Assembly: GCA_963422465.1 (NCBI GenBank)
Contig: OY730173.1
Coordinates: 558,001-622,000, forward strand
DNA: 64,000 bases
From: Lichina pygmaea
Lineage: Eukaryota; Ascomycota; Lichinomycetes; Lichinales; Lichinaceae
Direction of reading: 5' to 3'
Within the stretch, counting starts at the first letter, position 1. Every line of letters begins with the position of its first letter. Both the position numbers and the translations under genes were made by a program. The notes under the pieces were generated by a model. It was not told the DNA's origin, did not search any database, and saw only the letters and a list, made by a program, of their open reading frames with translations. Shown in pieces: positions 25,816 through 60,714 of this stretch.

Positions 25816-26247
25816 TTTTGATTTGATTTGATTCTTACACTGATTTGGCTGTTAAGCCATGCAGAACTTCTTGAAGGATTTTTGTCTCTGGTAGACTTGA
25901 CTCGGGGACCTCACACATTTACCGTACACCCTGTGGTTTGTAGTGTATGTACTGTGGGAAAACCCCAAACCTTGTAGGGGAAATAGGAAAACCACAGTAA
26001 TGAGAGTTTTGTGGATCTTGACGGATATTGGGTGAGCTATTTCTTGGGAGTTTTCATACATCTTGCGAGTACATCTTAGACAAGTTCTATGAATCTCGGG
26101 GGTTTTTGTGGCAGAATGTGGGGTGGGTCAGATTTGAACTGACGACTAGTTTAGTCAGGTTCTCCAGGCCTGACACCACTAGTTCCGGGTCATGGGTGCC
26201 ATGTAGTGGGAAACTCTCACCAGCTTCCCGCTACACCATGCCACCCC
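25816..26247 (-). mobile_element. tRNA-headed SINE, copy 2
   Basis: This 432-bp reverse-strand SINE lies in LINE ORF2, with a 12-bp target duplication TCCAAGACAAAT (25804-25815, 26248-26259). The ATCAAA tail is at the left and the tRNA-like head at the right. The 69-codon body frame is open (26061-25852). Confidence 0.95.
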
Positions 26248-27299: not shown

Positions 27300-27800
27300 G
27301 AGTATCTGTTGGGAACCACCAAAACCTTAAGGTGAAAACCCATCACTTTGGGTAACCCAGCTTGTTTGTCAAAAGTTGTGATCTCTGAATCTTCGATCTT
27401 CAACTTCAACAACCAACAGACTATCTATAACAAGGCAGAGAGTGGCCAGTGGGATTCTGAAAGACTGGGGACAGGCCCCAATTACCTAGGAACACTCAGT
27501 CTTGGGGTGTGGTCCCAGGATTGAGCAAGTACTCCCAGTCAGACAGATAACAGCTTGAACTTCTCTCAAGAGAAACATCTAGCATCAAGGAGATCAGGGC
27601 TCCCAGGATAAGAGAAATGGTTTAGAGCTTGCCTCTAGTGCTGGTAGAGTTGAAAAACTCTAGGAAAGCTCAGGCAGGGGGTGTGGTCTCCAGCTTGAGT
27701 TAATACAGCCAGATTTCCCTAGAGTCTAGTTGGAAAAGACTGCCCAGGAAAGTACAGTCTTGGGGAGTGGTCCCAGGATTGTGCAATTACTGCTAGGAAC
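27300..27800 (+). promoter_or_regulatory. LINE-A 5' UTR with three imperfect repeat blocks
   Basis: Three related blocks, each roughly of the form AGGAAAG..CAG..GGGG.GTGGTCCCAG..TTGAG..AATACT, occur at about 27485-27545, 27655-27715 and 27745-27800, with a GGGGACAGGCCCC palindrome upstream of the first. Equivalent blocks occur in the other LINE 5' ends (around 23010-23100 reversed, 23390-23540, 47150-47290). They probably form the internal promoter. Confidence 0.5.
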
Positions 27801-27845
27801 CAGGTGACCCTTTGTGAACAACCCACTGTGCAGGTTACCTACCCT

Positions 27846-32200: not shown

Positions 32201-32485
32201 GGGAGAATTGGTCTAGCAAGTTTTCTTTTCAGAGCTGGAGTCCCTGACTTTCCTACCCCCCTATGCATGTGTGGTCAAGCAGAAGAGACAGTAAAGCATA
32301 TCACCTCTTCATGCTCTCTCTACTCAAGTCAAAGACAACATGCTCTCTTTAACCCCCAAGATTTCACTACTATTATTTCAAACCCAGAGCTTCTACAGAA
32401 GTTTCTGTACTGGTTTATGTCTTTGAAAAGACTAAACCAATTTAATCTGGCTTTCAAACTTCACTATTCACACTCCAACATCTAG
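29243..32485 (+). CDS. LINE-A ORF2, APE endonuclease and reverse transcriptase
   Basis: The intact frame is 1080 aa. The N-terminal APE-like endonuclease shows LLQYNVQKS (Asn12), ALQEPW (Glu39), LLTDSNLHHPDW (~143) and SDHRPVL (~226). After a Lys/Glu-rich linker, RT motifs follow: WRPIALLNTTGKLMEA (~515), QMGFRKGRSTESALF (~552), SLDISGAYDRV (~585), GVPQGSPLSPILF (~642), FADDTNLL (catalytic DD, ~678) and VRVLGVYLD. The C-terminus has a CMCGQ..H..C motif (~1008), as in many LINEs. No RNase H DGS/TDG motif is present. Translation probably depends on reinitiation after ORF1. It would nick target DNA and prime reverse transcription, and by inference also serves the SINE that shares its 3' tail. 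Confidence 0.93.
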   Translation: MKNTKFTLLQYNVQKSQSVQELLLATPTLQEEDIIALQEPWKNPHLQTSTSTVFSSFLPLYSPEIGRTLFLINKNLNLSSLHPTFWSKDFVSLEIHLENTSTSLWVHNLYFTPSSQENYLQASEALLCLLQNALQAKGQHILLTDSNLHHPDWSKKRRLYSDTAHKFQTLMKNSNLELAIAPFTPTRARSLSHKPCSPIDLSFISSSLSNSLIFSKIALQFFHGSDHRPVLTSLDLDSPRKTWKPERNWKTLDTNLAKQECNNLQLPFHFQDKHEVDEYLEYLNHFLQEIADRCTELQKQSSHSVPWWNQEIQTKVKQERRIRRQVLRGQASQEELEEATKLKKKAVREGKQNTFRKQVHELASSSKFWKLAKWGKSKANKTPDLPLVPDLETQEGLAKSFEEKTKSFSAQFFPEARVPEPSTESHQSTPEIQLSQEVTTEEVEQILNKKKPFTAGGKDKLPNGFLKALGPKFCQAIAVLTSTCWRLEYFPEKFKNAKTVCLRKPGKGIYNQAKAWRPIALLNTTGKLMEAITAARLSKVAEEAKLLPEIQMGFRKGRSTESALFLLTSQVEKVWKEGMVASLLSLDISGAYDRVLPEILQKILERKGIPLWLTSWIFSFCTRRTTTLVFDDSESSSIPIHCGVPQGSPLSPILFLFYISELHETVHSPTTGVSALGFADDTNLLAFGHSLKSNLLKLKNTHLKCLSWAARHGMVFSPEKYEILHFSRRRSDNLQLKLRLGNVILKPKEEVRVLGVYLDAKLHWHKHQRIILQKAQKALSSLSRTSYSTWGFPVLTARLVYTAILRSVLSYAVGIWFNPLRKSSNISSLIIFQNKCLRLIGGAFKATPSFLLESELFLLPLDLYFKFRTACFLSSIQTSSLKDFLDSTFSTISSYASSLRKPLKKSSTISPNWKFTWLSQITTNQASSKKELQILFTKEWENQWEEKKRKGYAGWQVFCQKPHYNNLKLYKELQKAEASLLLQTRTGRIGLASFLFRAGVPDFPTPLCMCGQAEETVKHITSSCSLYSSQRQHALFNPQDFTTIISNPELLQKFLYWFMSLKRLNQFNLAFKLHYSHSNI

Positions 32486-33462
32486 AAGCTTTTCCTACCA
32501 GACACTACAAGATTTCCTTTTGCTACACTTTCTAGTCACCTCCCTGTCTTCAGTTTTTATTCCTTTAAAGGTTTTCTGAAGAAGTTCACTATTAGCTGGA
32601 AGATCTGCATGGCTGTAAAGCTACAAACAGTGTAAGAATCAAATCAAAAAATCAAATCAAATCAAAAATTCAAAACTCCCCTCTCACATACTTTCTTGAC
32701 AGTATCTTTTCCACTATTTCCAGCTATGCCTCTCTCTTGAAGAAACCTTTAAAGGAATCCTCAACTATCTCTCCTAAGTGGAAATTCACTTGGTTAAGTC
32801 AAATAACTACTAACCAGGCTAGTTCAAAGAAAGAACTACAAAAGCTCTTTACTAAAGAGTGGGAAGACCAATGGGAAGAGAAGAAAAGAAGAAGCTATCC
32901 AGGCTGGCAGACTTTCTGTCAAAAGCCACACAAAAACAATCTGAAGCTCTACAAAGAGTTACAGAAAGCTGAGGCAAGTCTGCTACTGCAAATCAGGACT
33001 GGAAGAATTGGTCTGGCAAGTTTTCTTTTCAGAGCTGGAGTTCCTGACTTCCCTACCCCACTATGTGTGTGTGGCCAAGCAGAAGAAACTGCAAAACATA
33101 TCACCTCTTCATGCTCTCTTTATTCAAGACAAAGACAACAAGTCTCTTTTAATCCCCAAGACTTCACCACTATTATTTCAAACCCAGAGCTACTACAGAA
33201 GTTCTTGTACTGGTTTATGTCTTTGAAAAGACTAAACCAGTTTAATCTAGCTTTCAAACTCCACTATTCCTAATCCAATACCTAGATTCTCTTCTCTTAC
33301 CAGAAACTTCAAGATTCCTTTTGTTACATTCCCTAGTCACATCCTGCCTTCAGTTTTTATTCCTTCAAAGGTTTTCTGAAGGAGTTCACTATTAGCTAGA
33401 AGATCTGCATGGCTGTAAAGCTACTACCAGTGTAAGAATCAAATAAAAATAAAATAAAAATA

Positions 33463-38304: not shown

Positions 38305-38975
38305 TGTTAAGAGCCAGGCCAAGTTCACACAGAAGGTGGCTGGTCTGTGTGTCTGGGTAAGAAGAACAGAGACTCAATAGATTTTGATTTGATTTGATTT
38401 GATTCTTACACTGATTTGGCTGTTAAGCCATGCAGAACTTCTTGAAGGATTTTTGTCTCTGGTAGACTTGACTCAGAGACCTCATGTATTTACTATACAC
38501 CCTGTGGTTTGTAGTGTACATACTGTGGGAAAACCCCAAACTCTGTAGGGGAAATAGGAAAACCACAGTAATAAGAGTTTTGTGGATCTTGACAGATATT
38601 AGGTGAGCTATTTCTTGGGGGTTTTCATACATCTTGCAAGGAGTACATCTTAGACAAGTTCTATGAATCTTGGGGGTTTTTGTGGCAGAATGTGGGGTGG
38701 GTCAAATTTGAACTGACAACTAGTTTAGTCAGGTTCTCCAGGCCTGACACCACTAGTTCCAGGTCATGGGTGCCATGTAGTGGGAAACTCTCACCAGCTT
38801 CCTGCTACACCATGCCAGACTCAATAGATAAATAGCAAGATAGGTAACTCTCTTGCTATTGTTGTTGCTATTTGTTGTTCAGTCTGGAGAGCTATTCTCC
38901 CCAGCTATCTGGGTGCTTTTATATACAGAAGTCTCTGGTGAAGAGTTCTCCACATAGAGGTATCATGCTCTGCCT
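38305..38975 (-). mobile_element. Reversed TGTTAAGG-family LTR (fossil) split by a SINE
   Basis: 38305-38382 and 38830 to about 38975 are the two halves of a reversed LTR (start TGTTAAGAGCCAGG; TTTTATATACAGAAG box near 38918). SINE copy 3 sits between them with a 13-bp duplication. The far end of the LTR fades out and is not sharply defined. Confidence 0.65.
38383..38816 (-). mobile_element. tRNA-headed SINE, copy 3
   Basis: This 434-bp reversed SINE is flanked by the 13-bp duplication AGACTCAATAGAT (38370-38382, 38817-38829) within an LTR. The tail (ATTTGATTTGATTTG as read on +) is at the left, the tRNA-like head at the right. The 69-codon body frame is open (38632-38423). Confidence 0.95.
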
Positions 38976-39545: not shown

Positions 39546-41040
39546 CATTTTTTATTTTATTTATTTGATTCTTACACTGCTAGTAGCTTTTCAGCTATGC
39601 AGATCTTCTAGCTAAGAGTAAGTCTCTTCAGAAAACCTTTAAAGAAATAAAAACTGAAGACTGGGAGTGACTAGGGAATGTAGCAAAAGGAAATCTTGTA
39701 GTGACTGGTAGAAAGGAAACTTCTAGATATTAGAGTGTGAATAGTGGAGTTTGAAAGCCAGATTAAACTAGTTTAGTCTTTTCAAAAACATAAACCAGTA
39801 CAGAAGCTTCTGTAGAAGCTCTGGGTTTGAAATAATAGTAGTGAAATCTTGGGGGTTAAAGAGAGCATGTTGTCTTTGACTTGAGTAGAGAGAGCATGAA
39901 GAGGTGATATGCTTTACTGTCTCTTCTGCTTGACCACAAATACATAAAGAAGTAGGAAAATCTGGAACTCCAGCTCTGAATAGAAAACTTGCCAGGCCAA
40001 TTCTCCCAGTTCTGGTTTGTAGTAGTAGTCTTGCCTCAGCTTTCTGTAACTCTTTGTAGAGCTTCAGATTGTTGTGGTGAGGCTTTTGGCAAAACACCTG
40101 CCACCCAGAGTAGCTTCTTCTTTTCTTCTTCTCCTATTAGTCTTCCCACTCTTTAACAAAGAGCTTCTGTAGTTCTTTCTTTGAACTAGCCGGGTTAGTA
40201 GTTATTTGGTTTAACCAAGTGAACTTCCAGTAGGGAGAGATAGTTGGAGATTTCTTTAAAGGTTTCTTCAGGGAAAAGGCATAGTGGGAGATATTGGAAA
40301 AAATATTGTCCAGAAGTGATTTCAGAGAGAAGGTTTGAATAGAAGAGAGGAAACAGACTGTGTGAAATTTGAAATAGAGATCTAGAGGTAAAAGAAAAAG
40401 CTCACTCTCTAATAAGAAAGATAGAGTGGCTTTGAAGGCACCTCCAATAAGTCTCAGACATTTGTTCTGGAATATCATAAGAGAGGAAATATTAGAAGAT
40501 TTTCTTAGAGGATTAAACCAGATCCCCACTGCATAGCTCAGTAAGGATCTGAGTATTGCAGTATACACAAGACATGATGTGAGGACTGGGAAACCCCAAG
40601 TAGAATATGAAGTTCTGGATGTCACAGTTCTGGCCCAGTTGCATATCTGGCACAAGTCACGCACCTTGCCGGGAAGTTCCATCTGCACTGTTACCTGTTT
40701 GCTCTGCTATTGCCTTGTTGCATATCTGGCACAAGTCGCGCACCTTGCTGGGAAGTTCCATCTGCACTGTTGCCTGTTTGCTCCGCCATATCCCCTGCCT
40801 ATAAGAACTTCTCCTGCTCCCCCAGCTTCTTCTCTTCTTCTTTTCTCTTTTCCTTCCTTGTCTTTCATCTTGTACATCAATCCAAGTCTCAAGTCTCAAG
40901 CCAAGTCAGGTCAAGAATACTGAATCAGTTAGGCTTGAGTTCTGCTCTGCTATTGCCTCGTCACACTGGAGAGAGAGGAGAGTGCTTTCTGAGCTTTTTG
41001 AAGAATAATTCTCTGGTGCTTATACTAGTGGAGTTTTACC
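39546..41040 (-). mobile_element. LINE-A 3' fragment split by a solo LTR
   Basis: This reverse-strand LINE runs from its tail (TTTATTTGATTCTTACAC as read on +) at ~39546 to 40619 and resumes at 40971-41040. It covers the RT C-terminal region and the CxC..H..C finger. The solo LTR insertion is bounded by a 5-bp duplication. The 5' side stops abruptly at 41040, where a forward LINE-A begins mid-ORF1, with no duplication visible. Confidence 0.8.
40620..40965 (+). mobile_element. Solo LTR of the gypsy family (fossil)
   Basis: This 346-bp LTR starts TGTCACAGTTCTGG and ends CTCGTCACA, with the 5-bp duplication CTGGA on both sides (40615-40619, 40966-40970). It contains a CCTATAAGAAC box and two copies of a ~95-bp block (GCATATCTGGCACAAGTC..). 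The intact duplication shows that a full element inserted here and was reduced by recombination between its LTRs. Confidence 0.95.
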
Positions 41041-44000
41041 AAGCCATCATATGCCCAGGCTGTCCAAAAATCTATTCCAGCACAAATCCCTCTACCTGCA
41101 AGAATTCTCAAAGAAGTTCTTGTACATCCTGGTATCCAGCCACCTGACATGGCTAATAGAACTCACATCCAGCTTTTCCAGACTCTTCAAGACAGACTAC
41201 CCAGCCCCTACAACAAGCAGGTCAGAGCAGTAAGGAAACTTCCTTCAGGGGATATCCTTATTAACACAGAAAGCCAAGAGACTAAAGTCTTCCTAGAGAA
41301 AAACCCTGCCTGGGTATCAGCTATCTTCACAAAGGAAGCAACCATCCAGCCCAAGAGATTTCCAGTTCTGATCCATGGAGTCAGAACAGAAGATATCCAA
41401 CCTGAAGACCTGGAGAAAACCTGCCAGATAATCCAGAACAGCAACCCATCTCTGAGCAAGCAAATCACTATCCTGAGAGCCTACTGGTCTAAGAAGGCTA
41501 TAGCTCAAAAGAAGCCAGTTACCTCTCTCCACCTGGATCTGGCTACCCCTGAACAAGCCAATCTTTTGATTGAGAGTGGGCTAGTGCTGGGGCACAGGAT
41601 GTATGAAGCAGAACCTTTTCTGGCAGACACAGTTATTGCACAATGTTTCAAGTGCTTTGGCTATAGGCACCAAGCACGCTTCTGCAAGAACAAAGCTGTG
41701 TGTGGTGCCTGTGGAGGCCAGCATGAAAGGAGAGCCTGCCAAGTTCCTGAACAGCTTCTCAAGCCAAAATGCTGCAACTGTAGAGGAGCTCACCCAGCCT
41801 GGGCCAGTGTCTGTCCAGTACGCCAGGAAGCAGCCAAGAAGGCAAGAGAAGCATGGAACACACGCCCAGGAAAATATGAGATCCCAACAGCTACCTCTGT
41901 TCCAGCTCTACAACCCCCCCCAGTTATGTCTTTCCCTCTCTCTCAGTCTCTACCAGGGGGGAAAAAACGTAAAACAGCTGAGCCAAGCAGAAGCTCAGAG
42001 AGACTCAGAGGTGCACTCCCAGAGGTGCAAATTCTTTCTTCAAGATCAGCCAACTCTGGAGGAAAGCTACCAGCGAACTCCTCCAAGATCTTTGATGCTG
42101 AGATGTCTGCATGAAAGACACAAAGCTGACACTTCTCCAGTATAATGTGCAAAAAAGCCAATCAGTCCAAGAGCTACTGCTAGCAACCTCAGCTCTCCAA
42201 GAGGTGGACATTATTGCACTTCAAGAGCCCTGGAAAAACCCTCACCTAGAAACAAGCACTTCAACTGTTTTCTCTTCCTTTCTTCCTCTCTACTGTTCAG
42301 AGATTGGCAGAACACTTTTTCTTATTAATAAAAATCTGAAACTCTCTTCTCTTCATCCTACCTTCTGGAATAAAGACTTTGTTTCTCTTGAAATCTACTT
42401 GGAAAACTCTTCTACTTCTCTTTGGGTACATAATCTCTACTTCACCCCATCAAGTCAAGAAAACTACACAGAGGCATCAGAAGCTCTTCTCTGTTTACTC
42501 CAAAATGCTTTACAAGAACAAGGACAACATATTCTTCTCACAGACTCAAATCTTCACCACCCAGACTGGTCAAAGAAAAGAAGACTGTACTCTGAGACTG
42601 CAAACAAGTTTCAAGACCTAATGAAAGATTTAAATCTGGATTTAGCTATTGCACCTTTCACCCCTACCAGAGCAAGATCTCTTTCTGAAAAACCATGTTC
42701 TTCTATTGATCTGTCTTTTATTTCTTCTTCTCTTTCTAACTCTCTGATTTTCTCTAAAGTGGCTTTTCAGTTCTTTCATGGGTCTGACCACAGACCTGTA
42801 CTAACCTGCCTGTACCTGGATCCTCCAAGGAAAATCTGGAAACCAGAAAGAAACTGGAGAACACTGGACTCAAACCTTGCAAGAGTAGAGTGTGAGAAGC
42901 TACACCTGCCCTTCCACTTCCAAGACAAATATGAAGTGGATGAGTACTTGGAGTATCTTGACAACTTTCTCCAAGAAATAGCAAGCAAATCCACACAGCT
43001 CCAGAAGCAATCTGGCCACTCAGTCTCCTGGTGGAATCAAGAGATCCAAAACAAGGTTAAAGAGGAAAGAAGAGTAAGAAGAAAAGTGCAAAAAAGGCAA
43101 GCAAGTCAAGAGGAACTTGAGCAAGCAACTAAGCTCAAGAAAAAGGCAGTCAGAGATGGAAAACAGAACACTTTCAGACACCAAATCCATGAGCTGGCCA
43201 GCTCTTCAAAGTTCTGGAAGCTTGCAAAGTGGGGAAAGTCCAAAGCCAACAAGACTCCTGATCTTCCTCTGGTTCCTGACCTGGAAACACAAGAAGGAAT
43301 AGCCAAAACCTTTGAGGAAAAGACTAAAGCCTTCTCACAACAGTTCTTTCCAAAAGCTCTAGTTCCAGAACCAGGCTCAGAAAGCTCCCAGACTATCTCT
43401 GAGATACAGCTCTCCCAGGAGGTAACATGTGAAGAAGTGGAGCAAATTCTGGCCAAGAAGAAACCTTTCACAGCAGGAGGGAGAGATAAGCTGCCAAATG
43501 GATTTCTGAGAGCTCTGGGGTCTAGGTTCTGCCAAGCTCTAGCTATTCTGACTTCAACATGCTGGAAACTGGAGTACTTCCCTGAAAGATTTAAGAGTGC
43601 AAAAACAGTCTGCTTGAGGAAACCTGGCAAGGGAACCTACAATCAAGCTAAAGCCTGGTGCCCTATAGCTCTGCTAAACACAACAGGCAAGCTGATGGAA
43701 GCTATTGCTGCAGCCAGACTAAGCAAGATAGCAGAAGAAGCTGGACTATTGCCAGATATCCAGATGGGCTTTAGGAAAGGAAGATCCACAGAAGTAGCAC
43801 TTTTCCTTCTAACCTCCCAAGTGGAAAAAGTCTGGAAGGAAGGCATGGTTGCATCCCTACTCTCACTGGATATCTCAGGAGCCTATGACAGAGTTCTCCC
43901 CAAGATACTACAGCAAATTCTGAAAAGAAAAGGAATACCAGCCTGGCTAGCTTCCTGGATCTACTCCTTCTGTGATAAGTGCTCTACCACTCTTGTCTTT

Positions 44001-45540
44001 GATGATTCTGAGTCTTGTTCCATTCCTATTCATTGTGGAGTTCCTCAAGGTTCTCCATTATCCCCTATTCTTTTTCTATTCTACATTTCTGAATTGCATG
44101 AGACTGTGCATACTCCCTCTTCTGGTGTATCTGCCCTGGGGTTTGCAGATGATACAAATCTGCTTGCTTTTGGTCACTCCTTGAAAAGTAACCTTCTGAA
44201 GTTAAAGAACACAAACCTCAAATATCTATCATAGGCTGCAAGACATGGAATGGTCTTCTCTCCTGAGAACTATGAAATACTTCATTTTTCCAGAAGAAGA
44301 TCAGACAATCTTCAGCTCAAGCTCAGACTGGGGAATGTGATTCTCAAACCAAAAGAAGAAGTGCGAGTACTTGGAGTGTACCTAGATGTAAAGCTCCACT
44401 GGCACAAACACCAGAGGATTATTCTTCAAAAAGCACAGAAAGCACTCTCTTCTCTTTCTAGAACTTCCTATTCTACTTGGGGCTTTCCAGTTCACACATC
44501 ATGTCTGGTGTACACTGCTATACTGAGATCTCTACTGAGCTATGCAGTGGGGATCTGGTTTAACCCTCTAAGAAAATCCTCCAATATCTCTTCTCTTGTT
44601 TCATTTCAAAACAGATGCCTAAGACTTATTGGGGGTGCCTTCAAAGCCACTCCTTCTTTTCTATTAGAGAGTGAGCTTTTTCTTCTACCTCTAGACCTAT
44701 ACTTTAAATTTCGCACTGCCTGTTTTCTTTCTTCTATTCAAAACCCCCCTCTCAAATACTTTCTTGACAGTATCTTTTCCACTATTTCCAGCTATGCCTC
44801 TCTCTTGAAGAAACCTTTAAAGGAATCCTCAACTATCTCTGCTAAGTGGAAATTCACTTGGTTAAGTCAAATAACTACTAACCAGGCTAGTTCAAAGAAA
44901 GAACTACAAAAGCTCTTTATTAAAGAGTGGGAAGACCAATGGGAAGAGAAGAAAAGAAGAAGCTATCCAGGCTGGCAGACTTTCTGTCAAAAGCCACACA
45001 AAAACAATCTGAAGCTCTACAAAAAGTTACAGAAAGCTGAGGCAAGTCTGCTACTGCAAATCAGGACTGGAAGAATTGGTCTGGCAAGTTTTCTTTTCAG
45101 AGCTGGAGTTCCTGACTTCCCTAACCCACTATGTATGTGTGGCCAAGCAGAAGAAACTGCAAAACATATCACCTCTTCATGCTCTCTTTATTCAAGACAA
45201 AGACAACAAGTCTCTTTTAATCCCCAAGACTTCACCACTATTATTTCAAACCCAGAGCTACTACAGAAGTTCTTGTTCTGGTTTATGTCTTTGAAAAGAC
45301 TAAACCAGTTTAATCTAGCTTTCAAACTCCACTACTCCCAACCCAATACCTAGATTCTCTTCTCTTACCAGAAACTTCAAGATTTCTTTTGTTACATTCT
45401 CTAGTCACACCCTGCCTTCAGTTTTTATCTCTTCAAAGGTTTTCTGAAGGAGTTCACTATTAGCTAGAAGATCTGCATGGCTGTAAAGCTACTACCAGTG
45501 TAAGAATCAAATAAATAAAATAAAAAAAATAAATAAAATC
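41041..45540 (+). mobile_element. LINE-A copy, 5'-truncated, one stop in ORF2
   Basis: It starts inside ORF1 at KPSYAQAVQKS, keeps ORF1 to its normal end (42114) and ORF2 from 42111 in the ATGA overlap. ORF2 is open for 707 codons, past FADDTNLL, to a TAG at 44232-44234 where other copies have Trp (LSWAARHG); the same frame then continues from 44250 to the normal stop at 45353. So one nonsense change separates it from a full ORF2. The 3' end has GTAAGAATCAAATAAATAAAATAAA. It is nearly identical to the copy at 23116-27213, suggesting a recent common source or duplication. Confidence 0.9.
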
Positions 45541-46866
45541 TCAGAACTGCACAATTCTGTACACACCCCTGAGAAAGGAGTTTCAGCACTTGGTTTTGCA
45601 GATGACACTAATCTTCTTGCATTCTCCTCTTTCTTGAAAAGCAACCTTCTCAAGTTGAAGTCTACACATTCCAAATGTCAGGACTGGGCAAGAAAACATA
45701 GTATGAAGTTTGCACCTGAAAAGTATAAACTTCTCCATTTTTGTAGAAGAAGAAGAGACAATCTTCAGCTCAGTCTAAGACTTGGAGAAGTGGTACTTCA
45801 ACCAAAAGAAGAAGCGCACATCTTGGGACTTTACTTTGACTCAAAACTTGTCTGGAAAAAACACCAAAAAATCATGTCACAGAAAGCCTCCAAATATTTC
45901 TCAGCTTTATCCAGAACAACCTACTCTACTTGGGGACTACCAGTCCTAACAGCACGTCATGTCTACACTGTTATACTAAGATCTCTTCTTAGTTATGCAG
46001 TAGGAGTCTGGTTCAATCCCCAAAAGAAACTCTCTAATATTATTTCATTATCTCCTTTCCAAAATAAATGTTTAAGAACTATAGGAGGTGTCTTTAAAGC
46101 CACACCTATTGTCCTACTTGAATCAGAACTATTTCTACCCCCTCTAGACTTATACTTCAAGCTGAGAACAGCATGTTTTCTTTCATCTTTCTATTCAAAC
46201 ACACTACCCAACTCTCCTTCTACACTTCTCCACAAACTACACAGTCAAATTTCTCTCTATGTTTCTTCTCTCAGAACTACACCAAATTCTCTGACAACTA
46301 TTTCTCTAAACTGGAGAACAGTCTGGCTGGAACAACTAACTACTAACCAAGACTTCTCAAAGAAAAGTCTACAGGAGGTTTTCCACAAAGAATAGGAAGC
46401 CAGATGGCAGGTAAGCAGAGGAAATTGTTCTGCTATTTGGGACATGTTCACCAGAAGGCCACAGAAGAAAAACCTCAATATCTTCAAAGATTTGAGAAAA
46501 GCTGAGTCTAGTCTATTTCTTCAAATTCTGTCAGCAAGAATAGGACTGGCCAGTTTTCTTTTCAGAGCAAATGTTCCAGACTTTAACTCCCCTCTATGCA
46601 CATGTGGTTTTGGAGAAGAAACAGCCCAACACATCACTTTTTTCTGTAACAAATTTTCAAACCAAAGACAACAAGTCCAATTCCCTCTACAAGATTTCCC
46701 ATCTATCTTATTCTCCTCCAAGCTACTTCCTAAACTTCTTTCCTAAACTTCTTTTCTGGTTTATGTCTTTGAAAAGACTTGACCAGTTCAACCTAGCCCA
46801 CCAACTCTCTTTCTAAGCTCTACCAAGTCAACTGTTTGTTTTAACAAATAGCTACATGTATCAAGT
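45541..46866 (+). mobile_element. LINE subfamily B fragment, RT C-terminal half
   Basis: It begins at SELHNSVHTPEKGVSALGFADDTNLLAF and continues through HILGLYFDSKLVWKKHQK and GGVFKATPIVLLESELF to a stop at 46395, then the C-terminal finger LCTCGFGEETAQHITFFC in a second frame piece (46444-46746). Divergence from LINE-A is clear throughout; it probably belongs with the ORF1-B copy at 21068-23115. The 5' side abuts the tail of the previous LINE-A. Residual 3' UTR runs to 46866. Confidence 0.75.
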
Positions 46867-48159: not shown

Positions 48160-51100
48160 TGTCACAGTTCTGGCCCAGTTGCATATCTGGCACAAGTCAC
48201 GCACCTTGCCGGGAAGTTCCATCTGCACTGTTGCCTGTTTGCTCTGCTGTATCCCCTGCCTATAAGAACTTCTCCTGCTCCCCCAGCTTCTTCTCTTCTT
48301 CTTTTCTCTTTTCCTTCCTTGTCTTTTGTCTTGTACATCAATCCAAGTCTCAAGTCTCAAGCCAAGTCAGGTCAAGGTTACTGAATCAGTTAGGCTTGAG
48401 TTCTGCTCTGCTATTGTCTTGTCACACTATGAAAGACCTACCCAACCATAACACACTTCACCAAGCCATGTTCATGTCCTTGTCATGTCTCAACAACCAG
48501 ACCAAGCTATGCCAGTTGCTGGAAATGACAAGTTCCTTCACAACATGTTTGCAGAGTTCATGCGAATTCAGGGGTGGCATGGTGTAGCGGGAAGCTGGTG
48601 AGAGTTTCCCACTACGTGGCATCCATGACCCGGAACTAGTGGTGTCAGGCCTGGAGAACCTGACTAAACTAGTTGTCAGTTCAAATCTGACCCACCCCAC
48701 ATTCTGCCACAAAAACCCCCAAGATTCATAGAACTTGTCTAAGATGTACTCCTCGCAAGATGTATGAAAACCCCCAAGAAATAGCTCACCCAATATCTGT
48801 CAAGATCCACAAAACCCTCATTACTGTGGTTTTCCTATTTCCCCTACAGAGTTTGGGGTTTTCCCACAGTACGTACACTACAAACCACAGGGTGTACAGT
48901 AAATGTGTGAGGTCTCCGAGTCAAGTCTACCAGAGACAAAAATCCTTCAAGAAGTTCTGCATGGCTTAACAGCCAAATCAGTGTAAGAATCAAATCAAAA
49001 TCAAATCAAAATCATTTGAATTCAAGCTACTAACACTACTCCCAAGTCCAAGTCTGAACACACTGCTGACCCAGAGATCTTCAGTGGCGATGGCAGAAAC
49101 ACAGAAATCACGCATGAGAAGCTTGAGAGCTTTATCACGTCACTGTCACTCAAGATGACACTCAACACTGACTGGTACCCCACGGAAACATCACTGATTG
49201 TGTATGTCTTTTCACGCACGACTGGCACTGTGCAGTCCTACATCTCAGCTAAGATCATGGCTGGCCAGTACATTGACTGGCATGACATCATCCAAGATCT
49301 CCAGAACACCTTCTCTGACCCAGACCCAGAGTTCCTAGCTCAGAGGAAGCTCATCACCTTGCGTCAGGCCAACTATTCCTTTGCTGAATTCTTCACAGAG
49401 TTCAATCAGTATGCTCTACGCACAGGCTTCAACAATAAGGCCTTGAAGTGCCATCTTTAATGTGCTGTCTCTGAAGAGCTTGTCAAGCAGCTTGTCAGCA
49501 TCAACCTCAAGGACATCAGCTATCAGAAGCTTGTTGAGGAATGCCAGCTGCAGGACAACCAGTTACGTACCACTTCTGCCAACTCTCACTGTCCACGTCA
49601 AGCACCTCCCACCCAAGCCTCAGTTCCACAGTCAGGAGCTTCAGTTCTGTGTCCAGGGTTCATCAAGCCAGTCTTCACGCCACAGCCACCAAGTTCTACC
49701 ATAGATCTCAGCCACTCTACGCTGACACCAGAAGAGTGAGAACATTGCCAAAGCAAAGGCCTCTGCTTCTACTGTGGGAACCAAGGTCATGTCTCAACCT
49801 TCTGTCCAGTGAAAAGCATGCCTGCTGTTGCCACCACCACAACCACCACCAAATCTGCCACTGTTGAGACTACTCCAGAGTCGGAAAACAAGTAGTCCTT
49901 GGTCATCGTCATGCCCAAGGACATGAAAAGGATCTCCATATTGGCTATTTGTCTCCAGACCAGCAATTGGACAGTAAGTACTTGTTTCTTTCTTGTATCC
50001 TAGATGGGAAATTCAAGTGCAATACTCTTATTGACTCTGGCTGTTCAGCATTTGGCTGCATTAGTTCTTCCTTTGTACAATCTCTTCACCAAGAACCTCT
50101 CCCCTACCCACACACATTGTGATTGTTTGATGGCAAGACATCACAAACTACACATCTCGCCAAGACAATCATGATCACAGCACTATGGCATGCACCAGGA
50201 AGAAGTCTCTCTCTTTGTGTCTCCTGGTCTTCACTATGATGTGATTCTGGGGATGCTATTGTTCCAGAAGCACAGGCTACATATTGATTGGACAAACACC
50301 TCAATCATGTTCAAGTCAGATTACTGCTGATCTGCATGCCTCAAGTCAAACAATGGCTATCCAATCTCTTTAGATCTTGAAGCCAAGATGTCTGCTGGAA
50401 AGCCTCAGAATCCCAAGCCTTTTTCTGCTATGCCAATCCCCATCAATGCTGCTGCATTTTCTCTCCTTGCTGCCAAGCCAGATTACCAGGTGTTCAGTGT
50501 TTCTCTGAGAGACATTGAGCAGGTGTTGAAGCCAAAGAAGTGTGTGGATCCTGCCACACTTCTCTCTGCTCAGTACCACAAGTTCCTGGACGTCTTCAGC
50601 AAGAATGACACTGACAAGCTTCCTTCTCTACGCCCAGGAGTTGACTACAAGATCAAGATAGAACCAGGAACCCAGGCACCCTCTGGACCTCTGTACAGCA
50701 TGAGCAGAGAAGAACTTGAAGTTCTCAAGAAGTACCTGACAGAGAACCTGAACAAGGGCTTTATTCAAGCATCTTCATCACCTGCTGCTACACCAGTCCT
50801 CTTTGTCAAGAAGCCAGAAGGTGGATTGCATTTCTGTGTAGACTACAGAGCACTCAACACCATCACTATCAAGAACTGTTACCCCCTGCCACTGATCTGG
50901 GAGATGTTGGACCAGCTTTGCAAAGCTGTGTGGTACACCAAGCTTGATATTGTTGGTGCTTTCAACTGTATCCGGATGAAGGAAGGTGAAGAATGGAAGA
51001 CTGCATTCCGCACACACTCAGGCCTCTACAAATACCTTGTCATGCTGTTTGGTCTTGCCAATACTCCAAGCATGTTCCAGAACTACATCAATGATGTTTT

Positions 51101-53977
51101 GGGACCTGACATCCTTGATGTCTTTGGCACTACCTATGTGGATGACATCCTTGTCTACAGTCAGACACTCAAGGAACACCAGAAGTATGTCATGCTTGTT
51201 CTCAGTCAACTACAAGATGCAAGCCTGCAAGTCGATATCTCCAAGTGTGACTTTGAAGTCCATCAAGTCAAGTACCTTGACCTCATCATTCAGTCTGCCA
51301 CTGAAGACGGCTGACCTGGATCTGTGAGTATGGACCCAGCCAAGACTGACACCATCAAGGAGTGGAAGCCTCCTGCCAGTCTCAAGGAAGTGCAGAGCTT
51401 TATTGCTTTTGCAAACTTCTACCGCCAGTTCATCAAAGACTTTGCCAAGCTTGCATCCCTGCTCACAGCTCTGACTAAGAAGAATGTTGCCTTCAAGTGG
51501 GAAACCCCAGAGCAGTGCTTGTTTAAAAGTATCAAGAAGGTGTTCAGCACTGCACCCATCCTGCAGTACTTTGATCTGGAGAAAGAGTGTGTTGTTGAGA
51601 CTGACACTTCTGACTACATCTCTGGTGCTGTCCTGTCACAGCCAGATCATGAAGGAGTTCTACACCCTGTTGCCTTCTTGTCACACTGCCACCTGCCGGC
51701 AGAATGCAACTACGAGATCTACAACAAAGAGTTGCTGGCAATTGCCTGTACCTTTGAAGAATAGTGAGCAGAGTTTGAAGAATCTCCAGAACCTGTCAAG
51801 GTGATCTCTGATCACAAGAACTTGGAGTACTTCATGTTGTCAAAGTACCTTTCCCACTGTCAAGCTTGTTGGAGTGAGTTCTTGTCACACTTCAATTTCA
51901 AGATCAGCTACTGTCCAGGCAGTCAGTGCAAGGCTGACACTCTCACTCAACATTCCCAAGACCTCCTGTCAGACAGTGATCCCTGTCAAGACTTCATGGA
52001 GTAAGTCATCCTCAAGCCCAAGAATCTTGCACATTCAGAGGTTCAAGTCAAGCCTATCTAGATCCTGAGATGTTCAGAAGCTGTACCAGTTGACACTGAA
52101 CCTGGTGCTGCACCTCTTTCAGACATCATCTAAGCTGCCTATAACAACCTTGCTGAAGGTGATCCAGTGGTAACAGTGTCACAGATACTAAGGGATGGTG
52201 TCAGGCACAGTCAAGAAGTGTCTCTCTCAGACTGCAGCTTGGAAAATAACTGTCTTTTCTACAAGAACTGACTCTGGATCCCTGAGAACAATAAGCTACA
52301 CTTACACCTGTTCCAAGAAGCCCATGACCAAGCAATGGCTAGCCACACTGGGATTGCCAAGACCCACAATCTCCTGTCTTGTTGGTACTATTGGCCAAAG
52401 ATAGTGAATATCATATAGCAATACATCAGGAATTGTCATGTCTGCTCTTGAGCAAAGCCTGCCTGTGATCGCCAAGGAGAGCTGCTGTCTCTTCCTGTGC
52501 CTCAGCAACATTGGCAGGATCTGGCTATGGATTTTATTACTAACTTACCCAAGTCAAGAGATACCTGCTTCCCTGGTGCCAAGCACATCTGGGTCATCAC
52601 TGACTGTCTCACCAAAGAACACCACTTTGTGCTATGTGCTGAGATGACAACATCACATCTTGTCTGGATGTTCATCCAGTTTGTTGTCTGTACCCATGGC
52701 TTGCCCAGGAGCATTGTCTCAGACAGAGGAGGTCAGTTTGTCAGCTTATTCTGGAAAGCACTCTATGCCCATCTTGACATCATGCTACGACTATCCTCAG
52801 GACACCACCCAGAGATAGATGGTCAGACAGAACAAGAGAATCAGGAGCTTGAACACTACCTGAGGTCCTATGTCAAATATCTCCAAGATGACTGGGTCTA
52901 ATGGCTTCCTCTGGCAGAGTTCACGCAGAACAACTCCCAGTCTGATTCCTCTGGCATGTCACTGTTCTTTGCCAACAAAGGGTTCCATCCACAGCTCAGT
53001 ATCACACCCACAAGTGAAGCCTGCAACCAAGATGCTATGGAAATCTCTGGAGAAATGACGCAGATTCTGGAACAGTTGCAAGCTGAACTCCGACTATCCC
53101 AGGAAGCTCAAGCTCACACCGCCAATTTGCATCAAGTCCTGTCACTATCCTATCAAACTGGAGATCTTGTTTGGCTGAATACCAAGAACATCAGAACACG
53201 CCACCCATGCAAAAAGCTTGACGACAAGTGGATTAGACTATTCAAGGTGTTGAAGACAGTCAGAAGCTGTGCCTGCTATCTGGAGCTTCCACACTCTCTC
53301 AAGATCCACCCTGTCTTTCATGTTTCCCTTCTACATCTGACACCTGCTAATCCTATCCCTGGCCAATCAAATAAACACTCTGGCCCTGTCATTGGTCAAG
53401 ACACAGATGAAGAGTTCCAGGTTGAAGAAATCCTTGACTCCAAGCCAGCAACATCTTGACAGAAGTTCAAGTACCTGGTCAAATAGTCTGGATGGCCAAT
53501 TGAAGATGCCACTGAAGAGTCTATTGAGTGTCTTGACAACACCAAAGACACCATCTACAACTTCCATGAGAAATACCCAAGGAAGTCACAGCCACGGAAC
53601 TACACCCACAAGTGGTCTGAGGCTCAAAGGAGTTCACTATGTGAAGGAGGGGGGTAATGTCACAGTTCTGGCCCAGTTGCATATCTGGCACAAGTCACAC
53701 ACCTTGCTGGGAAGTCCCATCTCCACTGTTTGCCTGTATGCTCCGCCATTGCTGGGAAGTTCCATCTGCACTGTTTGCCTGTTTGCTCTGCTGTTGCCTG
53801 ATCCCCTGCCTATAAGAACTTCTCCTGCTCCCCCAGCTTCTTCTCTTCTTCTTTTCTCTTTTCCTTCCTTGTCTTTTGTCTTGTATATCAATCCAAGTCT
53901 CAAGTCTCAAGCCAAGTCAGGTCAAGGTTACCGAACTCAGTTAGGCTCAAGTTCTGCTCTGCCATTGCCTTGTCACA
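48160..53977 (+). mobile_element. Ty3/gypsy retrotransposon fossil, copy A
   Basis: LTRs lie at 48160-48426 (267 bp) and 53658-53977 (320 bp); the length difference reflects copy number of an internal U3 block. A purine tract (GAAGGAGGGGGGTAA) precedes the right LTR. Parts in order, roughly: Gag 49.0-49.7 kb, protease 49.9-50.3, reverse transcriptase 50.6-51.3 (YVDDILVYS-type catalytic block), RNase H 51.5-52.0, integrase 52.4-53.25, and a chromodomain-like tail to 53.64. A SINE (copy 4) lies near its 5' end. The coding region is broken in several places, so this is a fossil. The two flanks are different parts of a LINE and show no 5-bp duplication. Confidence 0.92.
48571..49017 (+). mobile_element. 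tRNA-headed SINE, copy 4 (best tRNA-like head)
   Basis: This 447-bp SINE lies in gypsy copy A, with a GAATTCA duplication (48564-48570, 49018-49024). The tRNA-like head spans 48571-48698: 5' acceptor strand GGGGTGG, A-box-like TGGTGTAGCGG, T-arm GTCAG-TTCAAAT-CTGAC (48675-48691), and directly after it the 3' acceptor strand CCACCCC (48692-48698), giving 7 paired bases. The head is about 128 nt because of an extra hairpin. The body frame is open at 48760-48969. The tail runs from GAAGTTCTGCATGGCT (48951) to ATCAAA repeats. Confidence 0.95.
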
Positions 53978-54492: not shown

Positions 54493-54938
54493 GGGGTGGC
54501 ATAGTGTAGCAGGAAGCTGGTGAGAGTTTCCCACTACGTGGCACCCATGACCCGGAACTAGTGGTGTCAGGCCTGGAGAACCTGACTAAACTAGTCGTCA
54601 GTTCGAATCTGACCCACCCCACATTCTGCCACAAAAACCCCGAGATTCATAGAACTTGTCTAAGATGTACTCCTCGCAAGATGTATGAAAACCCTCCAGA
54701 AATAGCTCACCCAATATCTGTCAAGATTCACAAAACCCTCATTACTGTGGTTTTCCTATTTCCCCTACGGGGTTTGGGGTTTTCCCACAGTACATGCACT
54801 ACAAACCACACGGTGTACAGTAAATGTGTGAGGTCCCCGAGTCAAGTCTACCAGAGACAAAAATCCTTCAAGAAGTTCTGCATGGCTTAACAGCTGAATC
54901 AGTGTAAGAATCGAATCAAATCAAATCAAATCAAAAAT
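54493..54938 (+). mobile_element. tRNA-headed SINE, copy 5
   Basis: This 446-bp SINE lies in a LINE, flanked by AAAATACTTT / AAATTACTTT (to 54492 and from 54939). It starts GGGGTGGCATAGTG, with T-arm GTCAG-TTCGAAT-CTGAC and CCACCCC. The B-box core GTTCGAATC is closest here to the canonical tRNA sequence. The body frame is open (54681-54890). Confidence 0.93.
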
Positions 54939-55175: not shown

Positions 55176-58100
55176 TGTGACAAGGCAATGGCAGAGCAGA
55201 ACTCAAGCCTAACTGATTCAGTAACCTTGACCTGACTTGGCTTGAGACTTGAGACTTGGATTGATGTACAAGACAAAAGACAAGGAAGGAAGAAAAAGAG
55301 AGAAGAAGAGAAGAAGCTGGGGGAGCAGGAGAAGTTCTTATAGGCAGGCGATCAGGCAACAGCAGAGCAAACAGGTAACAGTGCAGATGGAACTTCCCGG
55401 CAAGGTGCATGCAGATGGAACTTTCCGGCAGGGTGCATGACTTGTGCCAGATATACAACAAGGCAATAGCAGAGCAAACAGGCAACAGTGCAGATAGAAC
55501 TTCCTGGCAAGGTGTATGACTTGTGCCAGATATGCAACTGGGCCAGAACTGTGACATTACCCCCCTCCTTCACATGGTGAACTTCTGTGAGCCTCAGGCC
55601 ACTTGTGGGCGTAGTTCTGTGGCTGTGGTTTCCTTGGATATTTCTCATGGAAGTTGTAGATAGTGTCTTTGGTGTTGTCAAGATGCTCAATAGGCTTTTC
55701 AGTAGTATTTTCAATTGGCTATGCAGACTATTTGACCAGGTACTTGAACTTCTGTCAAGATGTTGCTGGCTTGGAGTCAAGGATTTCTTCAATCTGGAAC
55801 TTTTCATCTGTGTCTTGACCAATGACAGGGCCAGGGTGTTTATTTGATTGGCCAGGGATAGGATTAGCAGGTGTCAGATGTAGAAGGGAAATATGAAAGA
55901 CAGAGTGGATCTTGAGAATGTGTGGAAGCTCCAGATGGCAGGCACAGCTTCTGACTGTCTTCAACACCTTGAATAGTCCAATCCACTTGTCATCAAGCTT
56001 TTTACATGGGTGGCATGTTCTGATGTTCTTAGTATTCAGCCAAACAAGATCTCCAGTTTGATAGGATGGTGACAGGACTTGATGCAAATTGGCGGTGTGA
56101 GCTTGAGCTTCCTGGGATAGTTGGAGTTCAGCTTGTAACTGTTCCAGAATCTGTGTTATTTCTCCAGAGATTTCCATAGCATCTTGGTTGCAGGCTTCAC
56201 TTGTGGGTGTGATGCTGAGCTGTGGATGGAACTCTTTGTTGGCAAAGAACAGTGACATGCCAGAGGAATCAGACTGGGAGTTGTTCTGCGTGAACTCTGC
56301 CAGAGGAAGCCATTGGACCCAGTCATCTTGGAGATAGTTAACATAGGATCTCAGGTAGTGTTCAAGCTCCTGATTCTCTTGTTCTGTCTGACTATCTGTC
56401 TCTGGGTGGTGTTCTGAGGATAGTTGTAGCATGACATCAAGATGGGCACAGAGTACTTTCCAGAATAAGCTGACAAACTGACCTTCTCTGTCTGAGACAA
56501 TACTCCTGGGTAAGCTATGGGTATGGACAATAAACTGGATGAACATCCGGACAAGATGCGAGGTTGTTATCTCAGCACATAGTACAAAGTGGTGTTCTTT
56601 GGTGAGACAGTCAGTGATTACCCAGATGTGCTTGGCACCAGGGAAGCAGGCATCTCTTGACTTGGGCAAGTCAGTAATGAAATCTATAGCCAGATCCTGC
56701 CAACATTGCTGAGGTACAGGAAGAGACAGTAGCTCTCCTTGGTGATCACAGGCAGGCTTTGCTCAAGAGCAGACATGACAATTCCTGATGTACTGCTGTA
56801 TGATGTTCACTATCTTTGGCCAATAGTACCAACAAGACAGAAGATTGTGGGTCTTGGCAATCCCAGTGTGGCTAGCTATTGCTTGGTCATGGGCTTCTTG
56901 GAACAGGTGTAGGTGTAGCTCATTGTTCTCAGGGATCCAGAGTCAGTTCTTGTAGAAGAGAAAGTCATTTTCCAAGCTGCAGTCTGAGAGAGACACTTCT
57001 TGACTGTGCCTGACACCATCCCTTAGTATCTGTGACACTGTTACCACTGGATCACCTTCAGCAAGGTTGATATAGGCAGCTTGGATGACATCTGAAAGAG
57101 GTGCATCATCAGGTTCAGTGTCAACTAGTACAGCTTCTGAACATCTCAGGATCTAGATAGACTTGACTTGAACCTCTGAATGTGCAAGATTCTTGAGCTT
57201 GAGAATGACTTACTCCATGAAGTCTTGACAGGGATCACTGTCTGACAGGAGGTCTTGGGAATGTTGAGTGAGAGTGTCAGCCTTGCACTGACTGCCTGGA
57301 CAGTAGCTGATCTTGAAATTGAAGTGTGACAAGAACTCACTCCAACAGGCTTGACAGTGGGAAAGACCCTTTGACAACATGAAGTACTCCAAGTTCTTAT
57401 GATCAGAGATCACCTTGACAGGTTCTGGAGATCCTTCAAACTCTGCTCACCATTCTTCAAAGGCACAGACAAATGCCAGTAACTCTTTGTTGTAGATCTT
57501 GTAGTTGCATTCTGCTGGCAGGTGGTGGTGTGACAAGAAGGTAACAGGGTGTAGAACTCCTTCATGGTCTGGCTGTGACAGGACAGCACCAGACACATAG
57601 TCAGAAGTGTCAGTCTCAACAACACACTCCTTCTCCAGATCAAAGTGCTGCAGGATAGGTGCAGTGCTGAACATCTTCTTGATACTTTCAAACAAGCGCT
57701 GCTCTGGGGTTTCCCACTTGAAGGTAACATTCTTCTTGGTCAGAGCTGTGAGCAGGGATGCAAGCTTGGCAAAATCTTTGATGAACCAGTGGTAGAAGTT
57801 TGCAAAGACAATAAAGCTCTGCACTTCCTTGAGACTGGCAGGAGGCTTCCACTCCTTGATGGTGTCAGTCTTGGCTGGGTCCATACTCACAGATCTGGGT
57901 CAGCTGTCTTCAGTGGCAGACTGAATGATAAGGCTAAGGTACTTGACTTGATGCACTTCAAAGTCGCACTTGGAGATGTCAACTTGCAGGCTTGCATCTT
58001 GTAGTCAACTGAGAACAAGCTTGACATGCTTCTGGTGTTCCTTGAGTGTCTGACTGTAGACAAGGATGTCATCCACATAGGCAGTGCTAAAGACGTCAAG

Positions 58101-60714
58101 GATGTCAGGTCCCAAAACATTATTGATGTAGTTCTGGAACATGCTTGGAGTATTGGCAAGACCAAAGGGCATGACAAGGTATTCGTAGAGGCCTGACTGT
58201 GTGCGGAACACAGTCTTCCATTCTTCACCTTCCTTCATCTGGATACAGTTGAAGGCACCAACAATGTCAAGCTTGGTATACCACACAGCTTTGCAAAGCT
58301 GGTCCAACATCTCCTGGATCAGTGGTAGGGGGTAACAGTTCTTGATAGTGATGGTGTTGAGTGCTCTGTAGTCTGCACAGAAACATAATCCACCTTCTGG
58401 CTTCTTGACAAAGAGGACTGGTGCAGCAGCAGGTGATGAAGATGCTTGAATGAAGCTCTTGTTCAGGTTCTCTGTCAGGTACTTCTTGAGAACTTCAAGT
58501 TCTTCTCTACTCATGCTGTACAGAGGTCCAGAGGGTGCCTGGGTTCCTGGTTCTATCTTGATCTTGTGGTCAACTCCTGGGTGTAGAGGAGGAAGCTTGT
58601 CAGCGTCATCCTTGCTGAAGATGTCCAGGAACTTGTAGTACTGAGCAGGGAGAAGTGTGGCAGAATCCACACACTTCTTTGACTTCAATACCTGCTCAAT
58701 GTCTCTCAGAGAAACACTGAACACCTGGTGATCTGGCTTGGCAGCAAGGAGAGAAAATGCGGCAGCATTGATGGGGATTGGCATGGCAGAAAAAGGCTTG
58801 GGATCCTGAGGCTTTCCAGCAGACGTCTTGGCTTCAAGATCTAAAGAGATTAGATAGCTATTGTTTGACTTGAGGTATGCAGATCAGTAGTGATCTGACT
58901 TGAACATGATTGAGGTGTTTGTCTAATCAATGTGTGGCCTGTGCTTCTGGAGCCATGGCATCCCCAGAATCACATCATAGTGAAGACCAGAAGACACAAA
59001 GAGAGAGACTTCTTCCTGGTGCACACCATGGTGCTGTGGTTATGATTGTCTTGGCGAGATGTGTGGTTTGTGATGTCTTGCCATCAAACAATCACAATGT
59101 GTGTGGGTAGGGGAGAGGTTCTTGGTGAAGAGATTGTGTAAAGGAAGGACTAATGCAACCAAATGCTGAATAGCCAGAGTCAATAAGAGCATTGCACTTG
59201 AATTTCCCATCTAGGATACAAGGAAGAAACAAGCACTTGCTGTCTAACTGCTGGTCTGGAGACAGATAGCCAACATGGAGATCTTTTTCATGTCCTTGGG
59301 TGTGACGATGACCAAGGACTACTTGTTTTCCGACTCTGGAGTAGTCTCAACAGTGGCAGACTTGGTGGTGGTTGTGGTGGTGGCAACAACAGGCATGCTT
59401 TTCACTGGACAGAAGGTTGAGACATGACCTTGGTTCCCACAGTAGAAGCAGAGGCTTTTGCTTCAGCGATGTTCTCACTGTTCTGGCCTCAGATTAGAGT
59501 GGCTGAGATCCATGGTAGGACTTGGTGGCTGTGGTGTGAAGACTGGCTTGATGAACTCTGGACACAGAACTGAAGCTCCTGACTGTGGAACTGAGGCTTG
59601 GGTGGGAGGTGCTTGATGTGGACAACAAGAGTTGGCAGAAGTGGTACACAACTGGTTGTCCTGCAGCTGGCATTCCTCAACAAGCTTCTGATAGCTGATG
59701 TCCTTGAGGTTGATGCTGACAAGCTGCTTGGTAAGCTCTTCAGAGACAGTACATCAAAGATAGCACTTCAAGACCTTGTTGTTGAAGCCTGTGTGTGGAG
59801 CATACTGATTAAACTCTGTGAAGAACTTGGCAAAGGAATGGTTGGCCTGACACAAGGTGATGAGCTTCCTCTGAGCTAGGAACTCTGGGTCTGGGTCAGA
59901 GAAGGTGTTCCGGAGATCTTGGACGATGTTGTACCAGTCAATGTACTGGCCAGCTGTGATCTTAGCTGAGATGTAGGACTGCGCAGTGCCAGTTGTGCAT
60001 GAAAAGATGTACGCAATCCACGATGTTTCTGTGGGGTACCAGTCAGTGTTGAGTGTCATCTTGAGTGACAGTGATGTGATGAAGCTCTCAAGCTTCTCAT
60101 GCGTGATTTCTGTGTTTCCACTATCACCACTGAAGATCTCTGGGTCAGCAGTGTGTTCGGACTTGGACTTGGGAGTAGTGTTAGTAGCTTGAATTCACAT
60201 GAACTCTGCAAACATGTTGTGAAGGAACTTGTTATTTCCAGCAACTGGCATGGCTTGCTCTGGTTGTTAAGATATGACAAGGACGTGAACATAGCTTGGT
60301 GAAGTGTGTTATGGTTGGGTAGGTCTTTCGTAGTGTGACAAGACAATAGCAGAGCAGAACTCAAGCCTAACTGATTCAGTAACCTTGACCTGACTTGGCT
60401 TGAGACTTGAGACTTGGATTGATGTACAAGACGAAAGACAAGGAAGGAAGAAAAAGAGAGAAGAAGAGAAGAAGCTAGGGGAGCAGGAGAAGTTCTTATA
60501 GGCAGGGGATCAGGCAACAGTGGAGCAAACAGGCAACAGTGCAGATGGAACTTCCTGGCAAGGTGTGTGCAGATGGAACTTCCTGGTTGGGTGCGTGACT
60601 TGTGCCAGATATACAACAAGGCAATAGCAGAGCAAACAGGCAACAGTGCAGATGGAACTTTCTGGCAAGGTGTGTGACTTGTGCCAGATATGCAACTGGG
60701 CCAGAACTGTGACA
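55176..60714 (-). mobile_element. Ty3/gypsy retrotransposon fossil, copy B
   Basis: This reverse-strand element of 5.54 kb has two 381-bp LTRs (55176-55556, 60334-60714) and a perfect 5-bp duplication TTGTG (55171-55175, 60715-60719) in LINE DNA. Parts, read right to left: Gag ~60.3-59.5 kb, protease ~59.3-58.9, reverse transcriptase ~58.6-57.9, RNase H ~57.7-57.2, integrase ~56.8-55.95, then a chromodomain-like tail. The LTRs differ at roughly 20 of 381 positions by my count, almost all transitions, which suggests an insertion perhaps up to a few million years old, less if mutation was accelerated. The coding region is broken in several places. Confidence 0.93.

Follow-up and report, generated by a model that had tools for sequence, protein, structure and literature searches.

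Five copies of a SINE of about 440 bp, flanked by target duplications and in three cases matched by empty sites, share their 3' tail with a LINE family of the same locus, one member of which, LINE-A, is a candidate partner with open reading frames. All of this was established directly in the analysed stretch of DNA (64 kb, 49.0% GC; below, the window). The element is very probably a SINE that uses the tail of this LINE family, and our confidence is lower for LINE-A specifically. Since the SINE ends in the tail of the LINE, it most likely moves by borrowing the copying enzyme of the LINE. The initial annotation had read the locus as a LINE-tailed SINE accompanied by a LINE whose ORFs are open and whose terminal repeat matches, and the sequence supports this reading. 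Host genes are mixed in the window with nested retroelements. Four of the ten window ORFs scanned with Pfam are host-like (a mitochondrial DNA polymerase exonuclease domain with DNA polymerase A, an LDB19-type arrestin, a SNF2 helicase and a squalene/phytoene synthase), and they suggest a fungal host.

BLAST of the window recovered all five copies where they had initially been placed (target duplications are given in SINE sense):

17888-18329, forward strand: S1, the most diverged SINE copy; 12-bp target duplication AATCTCAACACC
25816-26247, reverse strand: S2, inside a LINE-B copy; perfect 12-bp duplication ATTTGTCTTGGA; empty site in the LINE copy at 42890-42970
38383-38816, reverse strand: S3, first 5 nt missing; 13-bp target duplication ATCTATTGAGTCT
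48571-49012, forward strand: S4, the subject of the finding; duplication of ~12 bp at 48559-48570 / 49013-49024 (CATGCGAATTCA / CATTTGAATTCA, two mismatches between the sides); empty paralogous site at 60165-60235 (reverse strand) in the second copy of an LTR-type element, where the duplication sequence reads CATGTGAATTCA
54493-54938, forward strand: S5, inside a LINE copy; duplication of ~10 bp with one mismatch (AAAATACTTT / AAATTACTTT); empty in three other LINE copies (31360-31440, 44228-44308 and 20335-20415)

The shared tail and the candidate LINE partner

The tail of S4 and the LINE 3' ends compared with it are located as follows:

48951-49012, forward strand: LINE-like 3' tail of S4, (ATCAAA)n, possible hairpin TGGCT-TAAC-AGCCA
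32599-32667, forward strand: 3' tail of LINE-A, compared by BLAST and shuffle test
33398-33461, forward strand: 3' tail of LINE-B1, AATAAA-type repeat
39549-39609, reverse strand: 3' tail of LINE-C, AATAAA-type repeat
45466-45526, forward strand: 3' tail of LINE-B2, AATAAA-type repeat
19113-19164, reverse strand: 3' tail of LINE-B3, AATAAA-type repeat; the copy is flanked by a target duplication of 12 bp, ACATCAATCCAA

Comparison of S4 with the window by BLAST yielded all five SINE copies and, in addition, five LINE 3' ends (E from 9e-14 to 2.5e-8 for the S4 tail, terminal repeat included). The match spans the last ~45 nt of the SINE, and 36 columns are invariant in a 53-column alignment of the five SINE and five LINE ends. 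As judged by eye, a longer homology of the tails is possible via a deletion of ~18 nt (SINE AAGAAGTTCTGCATGG against LINE-A AAGAAGTT + CTGCATGG). With the terminal repeat removed, the local alignment score is 51 for LINE-A and 47, 47, 47 and 44 for the other four LINE ends. The match of the SINE tail to LINE-A proposed in the initial annotation stands for the core, but every one of the five LINE ends shares this core, and only ATCAAA, present in one LINE copy, is peculiar to LINE-A.

The terminal repeat is ATCAAA in all five SINEs and in LINE-A, and of AATAAA type in LINE-B1, LINE-B2, LINE-B3 and LINE-C. The matching repeat unit that characterizes a stringent SINE/LINE pair is found with LINE-A. 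LINE-C is nearer to LINE-A (88.6% identity of the 3' ends) than to LINE-B (83.9-84.3%) and yet has the AATAAA-type repeat, so the repeat type does not simply track LINE relatedness. As two repeat types occur in adjoining LINE subfamilies, the part of the tail which sets the pairing could be tested genome-wide.

LINE-A, the proposed partner of the SINE, contains two long overlapping ORFs:

27217-32667, forward strand: LINE-A, ending in (ATCAAA)n
27804-29246, forward strand: ORF1, 480 aa from GTG (by the rule of the tool), CCHC-type zinc knuckles read by eye
29243-32485, forward strand: ORF2, 1080 aa, endonuclease and reverse transcriptase

In this LINE, initially described as intact, both frames (480 and 1080 codons) are open, and ORF2 has the endonuclease and reverse transcriptase domains (Exo_endo_phos_2 and RVT_1 by Pfam). 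The zf-CCHC domain of ORF1 appears in Pfam at E 8.4 only. LINEs of the Tad1 clade have an ORF1 with CCHC knuckles and an ORF2 with APE-type endonuclease and reverse transcriptase. LINE-A has these domains, the knuckles by eye, and is a candidate member of this clade. We do not assign it to Tad1; the solved structures nearest to its reverse transcriptase, R2 and L1, are not discriminating. No RNase H was reported by Pfam in ORF2 up to E 10, a search in which the HMMER filters may drop weak matches, and the structure model of the ORF2 C-terminus (mean pLDDT 36) is too poor to judge this domain. ORF2 (29243-32485) ends with a CxCG...H...C-type motif, with no RNase H in Pfam between the reverse transcriptase and the motif. 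An RNase H domain is described in ORF2 of an Aspergillus Tad-clade element in the passage cited (PMC5063351).

Of the LINE copies under comparison, LINE-A alone has a full-length stop-free ORF2. The region matching it contains one stop in LINE-B2, three in LINE-C, one in LD1 and two in LD2; LINE-B1 (24900-27215 only) and LINE-B3 are free of stops there, yet they are either interrupted or truncated at the 5' end. A search of viral_contigs for the LINE ORF2 gave three pattern matches and no confirmed relative, and exact patterns of the SINE tail matched nothing in viral_contigs or genome_contigs.

Several further features of the LINE copies were observed. At the site of LINE-A (27200-27220 / 32660-32680), the LINE-B1 around it lacks about 850 bp; either part of the target was lost when LINE-A inserted, or the two pieces of LINE-B1 belong to different copies. 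Directly after the LINE-B2 3' end there is a distant relative of LINE-A (45538-46797, ~67% nucleotide identity), hence a more diverged LINE lineage is present in the same locus. At the LINE-B2 5' end lies an inverted LINE piece of 71-74 nt (40966-41036), such as twin priming would leave behind.

From these sequences we infer that LINE-A mobilises the SINE. LINE-A is also the presumed driver in preference to another subfamily; ATCAAA is here known from just one LINE-A copy, and the core of the tail matches nearly as well in the other subfamilies. The driver may instead be the LINE-B and LINE-C subfamilies, whose tails are of AATAAA type, or indeed any member of the family, ATCAAA merely reflecting the ancestor of the tail. 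We regard this as an appreciable possibility, though not a likely one. It is favoured by the core scores of these LINEs (44-47 against 51 for LINE-A) and by the three LINE-B copies, which moved recently, as they are 97.7-98.6% alike across their 3' ends; it is opposed by the presence of ATCAAA in all five SINEs and, among the LINEs, in LINE-A only, as well as by the intact ORF2, which LINE-A alone retains among the copies compared.

Far weaker is the explanation by chance or by the simple repeat alone, for which the A-rich, low-complexity repeat could be invoked: its probability is negligible, and it is ruled out by a shuffle test with the repeat removed (S4 as the sole SINE query, last 400 nt per LINE, 2000 dinucleotide shuffles each), in which the shuffle maxima were 34-37 against the observed 44-51 and 0/2000 shuffles reached the observed score at any of the five LINE ends. 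Within the window, the resemblance is therefore not limited to the simple repeat, a limitation that would have refuted the initial annotation, and the SINE 3' end is homologous to the LINE 3' end beyond it, as in other shared-tail pairs.

A two-step stem (CTG/CAG + TGGCT/AGCCA-type) can be formed in nearly all SINE and LINE tails. Its cells pair in 98.6% of cases against 15-52% when the stem is slid, with one pair broken in S1; no pair is altered on both sides in a compensatory manner, and shuffles pair equally well. Five tails folded singly were no more stable than shuffles (z from -0.3 to -1.7), and the TGGCT-type hairpin belongs to the best fold in three of them (S4, S5 and LINE-C). A shared 3' hairpin is plausible by analogy with the stringent LINEs described in PMC4176376, but it is spoken against by LINE-A, the tail of which, like that of LINE-B1, folds best into a different hairpin.

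The SINE head

The head of the SINE folds most stably in S4 and S2, and its elements in S4 are the following:

48571-48700, forward strand: tRNA-like head with acceptor-type stem GGGGTGG/CCACCCC, two long hairpins and T-arm GTCAG-TTCAAAT-CTGAC (z -4.4)
48580-48591, forward strand: A-box-like TGGTGTAGCGGG
48675-48691, forward strand: T-arm with B-box-like GTTCAAATC

The ~130-nt heads of S4 and S2 fold with about -60 kcal/mol (z -4.4 and -4.2, that is, about -4.3 in the two best heads). The fold is composed of a 7-bp acceptor-type stem, two long hairpins standing in place of the D and anticodon arms, and a canonical T-arm (5-bp T stem and 7-nt loop TTCRANY). The other heads fold less stably (S1 -41.7, S3 -43.5, S5 -52.0), and the full acceptor stem is not formed in S1 and S3. 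Over the five heads 95.2% of the cells pair, and compensatory support was not found, no pair being changed on both sides.

The window was scanned with the consensus pattern of A box and B box. This pattern occurs at three window sites, all of them the best-preserved SINE heads (3/5 copies); shuffled windows give a mean of 0.4 and a maximum of 4 matches, and three matches are not rare by number alone. The internal Pol III promoter typical of SINE2 elements is represented in these three copies by A and B boxes as sequence motifs. The geometry of acceptor stem and T-arm selects the same three sites and was found 0.0 times per shuffled window in 100 shuffles, in a scan devised after the fold was seen and with the three matches being copies of one family. 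The B box carries substitutions in S1 and S3, i.e. it is damaged in two of the five copies, and the head of S1 has an altered start.

The head had initially been called tRNA-derived. This is borne out in three copies by the A and B boxes, the 7-bp acceptor stem and the T-arm, but not by the standard tRNA searches: the Rfam tRNA model gave no match to S4 (the one copy scanned) at E<=10, where only sub-threshold matches to unrelated families appeared, and ARAGORN at its default score threshold, with or without introns, called no tRNA in the SINE heads. Relaxed ARAGORN proposed Ser(aga) with a 48-nt insertion in 4/5 SINE copies against 7/200 controls. As some call was made in 200/200 control pieces, the relaxed mode is unspecific, and its calls, mitochondrial mode included, were regarded as noise. 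A scan for bacterial promoters and terminators found nothing and is uninformative here.

It is conceivable that the head comes from a small structured RNA other than a tRNA, with a motif resembling a B box; the element would then be a SINE-like non-autonomous retroposon. The silence of Rfam and of default ARAGORN, the unspecific relaxed calls and the replacement of the D and anticodon arms by two long hairpins all speak for such an origin. Nevertheless, we find it doubtful, because acceptor stem, T stem and T loop co-occur with correctly ordered A and B boxes nowhere in the window but in the SINE heads, and because the Ser(aga) call is made in most of the copies and in few controls. If the head is tRNA-like, the locus might represent a fungal SINE family in which the tRNA-type acceptor and T-arm were kept and the rest was replaced by two long stable hairpins, with a LINE driver apparently devoid of RNase H. 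Taken as a whole, this is a speculative proposal and rather an unlikely one. If it is true, fungal SINEs would include a novel type of head, an enlarged cloverleaf that may have been retained because it stabilises the RNA or helps it dock on the LINE machinery.

SINE insertions and the proposed mode of movement

The five SINE copies (432-447 bp, all within the 64 kb window) are 90.6-97.0% identical in pairwise comparisons over 427-445 columns. They are short (<~700 bp), dispersed and flanked by duplications, as is characteristic of tRNA-type SINEs (SINE2). The initial annotation had indicated duplications of 7-13 bp at each copy. Target duplications of LINE type do flank all five copies, but their range is about 10-13 bp, and that of S4 measures ~12 rather than 7 bp. 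The end of S4 had been placed at 49017 and actually lies near 49012, because the 7-bp GAATTCA noted there is the right part of the ~12-bp duplication. A similar duplication is also present on a LINE, namely the 12-bp one of the LINE-B3 copy.

SINE-free paralogous sites exist inside the window for three of the five copies (25816, 48571 and 54493), and for these copies the insertion is thereby proven. The target junctions of the five SINEs in SINE sense are CT|AATC (or CTA|ATC), CAT|ATTTG, TTT|ATCT, GTT|CATG and ATA|AAAT; those of the LINEs are TGT|ACAT for LINE-B3 and CT|ATTC for LINE-A. Read by eye, the junctions mostly have a T|A step, and the AAT/ATC of the tail itself can overlap the target. 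Segmental duplication instead of retroposition, which the large duplicated and inverted blocks of the locus might bring to mind, has practically no chance of being the source of the five copies and is ruled out by flanks and target duplications that differ at all five and by the clean empty sites at three.

Two inverted copies of an LTR-type retroelement with TGTCACA-type ends were observed at 48161-53977 and 55177-60714 (reverse strand), 94% complementary over 4.7 kb. The LINE fragments flanking the first copy do not belong to the same LINE region and thus point to recombination more than to a simple insertion. In S1 (17888-18329), 8 of 13 C>T changes are located in CpA and 6 of 10 G>A changes in TpG; this pattern resembles mild repeat-induced point mutation.

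The proposed movement of the SINE is as follows. The element would be a short non-autonomous retrotransposon headed by an altered tRNA-like RNA gene whose Pol III promoter is internal, and its last ~45 nt were probably acquired from the 3' untranslated end of the local LINE family. The SINE RNA would be made by Pol III. This cannot be taken for granted, since Pol II transcription is reported for Eg-R1, a SINE-like fungal element (PMC6022598). The ORF2 protein of LINE-A type would then recognise the 3' tail of the SINE, perhaps via the hairpin, plus (ATCAAA)n, and nick the target, in many cases between a T and an A. Reverse transcription of the SINE RNA at the nick would give rise to target duplications of 10-13 bp.

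Comparison with known SINE/LINE systems

The principle of a SINE copying a LINE tail has long been known. A full-text search for short sequence words of the present SINE and LINE returned no match, few papers printing sequences, and the pair may be an already-known Repbase family. The likenesses given here follow the descriptions in the passages cited.

The mechanism proposed for the present SINE is like that of the stringent fish LINEs UnaL2 and ZfL2 and their SINE pairs, in which the ORF2 protein recognises a shared 3' stem-loop followed by short repeats (PMC4176376, PMC3747384); zebrafish L2 LINEs recognise their own 3' stem-loop (PMC4176376). Retrotransposition and binding assays are described for UnaL2 and ZfL2 (PMC4176376, PMC3747384), whereas the present pair is known from sequence alone and its hairpin is without compensatory support. 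SINE/LINE pairs are also reported for the Tad1 clade (PMC4176376).

Eg-R1 of Blumeria graminis is, like the present SINE, a short non-autonomous non-LTR fungal retroelement, and an abundant one. In contrast to the present element with its A/B-box motifs, Eg-R1 is described as having neither A nor B box and as being transcribed by Pol II with an AAUAAA signal (PMC6022598).

AfuSINE2-1a of Aspergillus, with I-1_AF / I-4_AO, is likewise a fungal SINE; it is tRNA-related and has a 3' part resembling the 3' UTR of a Tad1-type LINE (PMC5063351). It differs in ending with ACT repeats, not ATCAAA, and in the LINE similarity spanning its positions 210-335 (PMC5063351).

Two fungal SINE/LINE pairs are tabulated in PMC3747384, Mg-SINE with MGL/MGR583 and SINE2-1_BG with Tad1-24_BG, and the present pair can be likened to both by description. 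SINE2-1_BG of Blumeria graminis is of tRNA class and is paired with a LINE of Tad1 name (PMC3747384). Mg-SINE of Magnaporthe grisea, also of tRNA class and with 472 bp about as long as the present SINE (PMC5063351), mimics the tail of MGL (PMC2104539), its 3' end resembling that of MGL/MGR583 (PMC3747384, PMC2104539). The present SINE/LINE pair is a further member beside these known fungal tail-sharing pairs, and its locus offers a well-resolved, probably fungal case of a LINE tail copied by a SINE, with a candidate driver within the same 64 kb.
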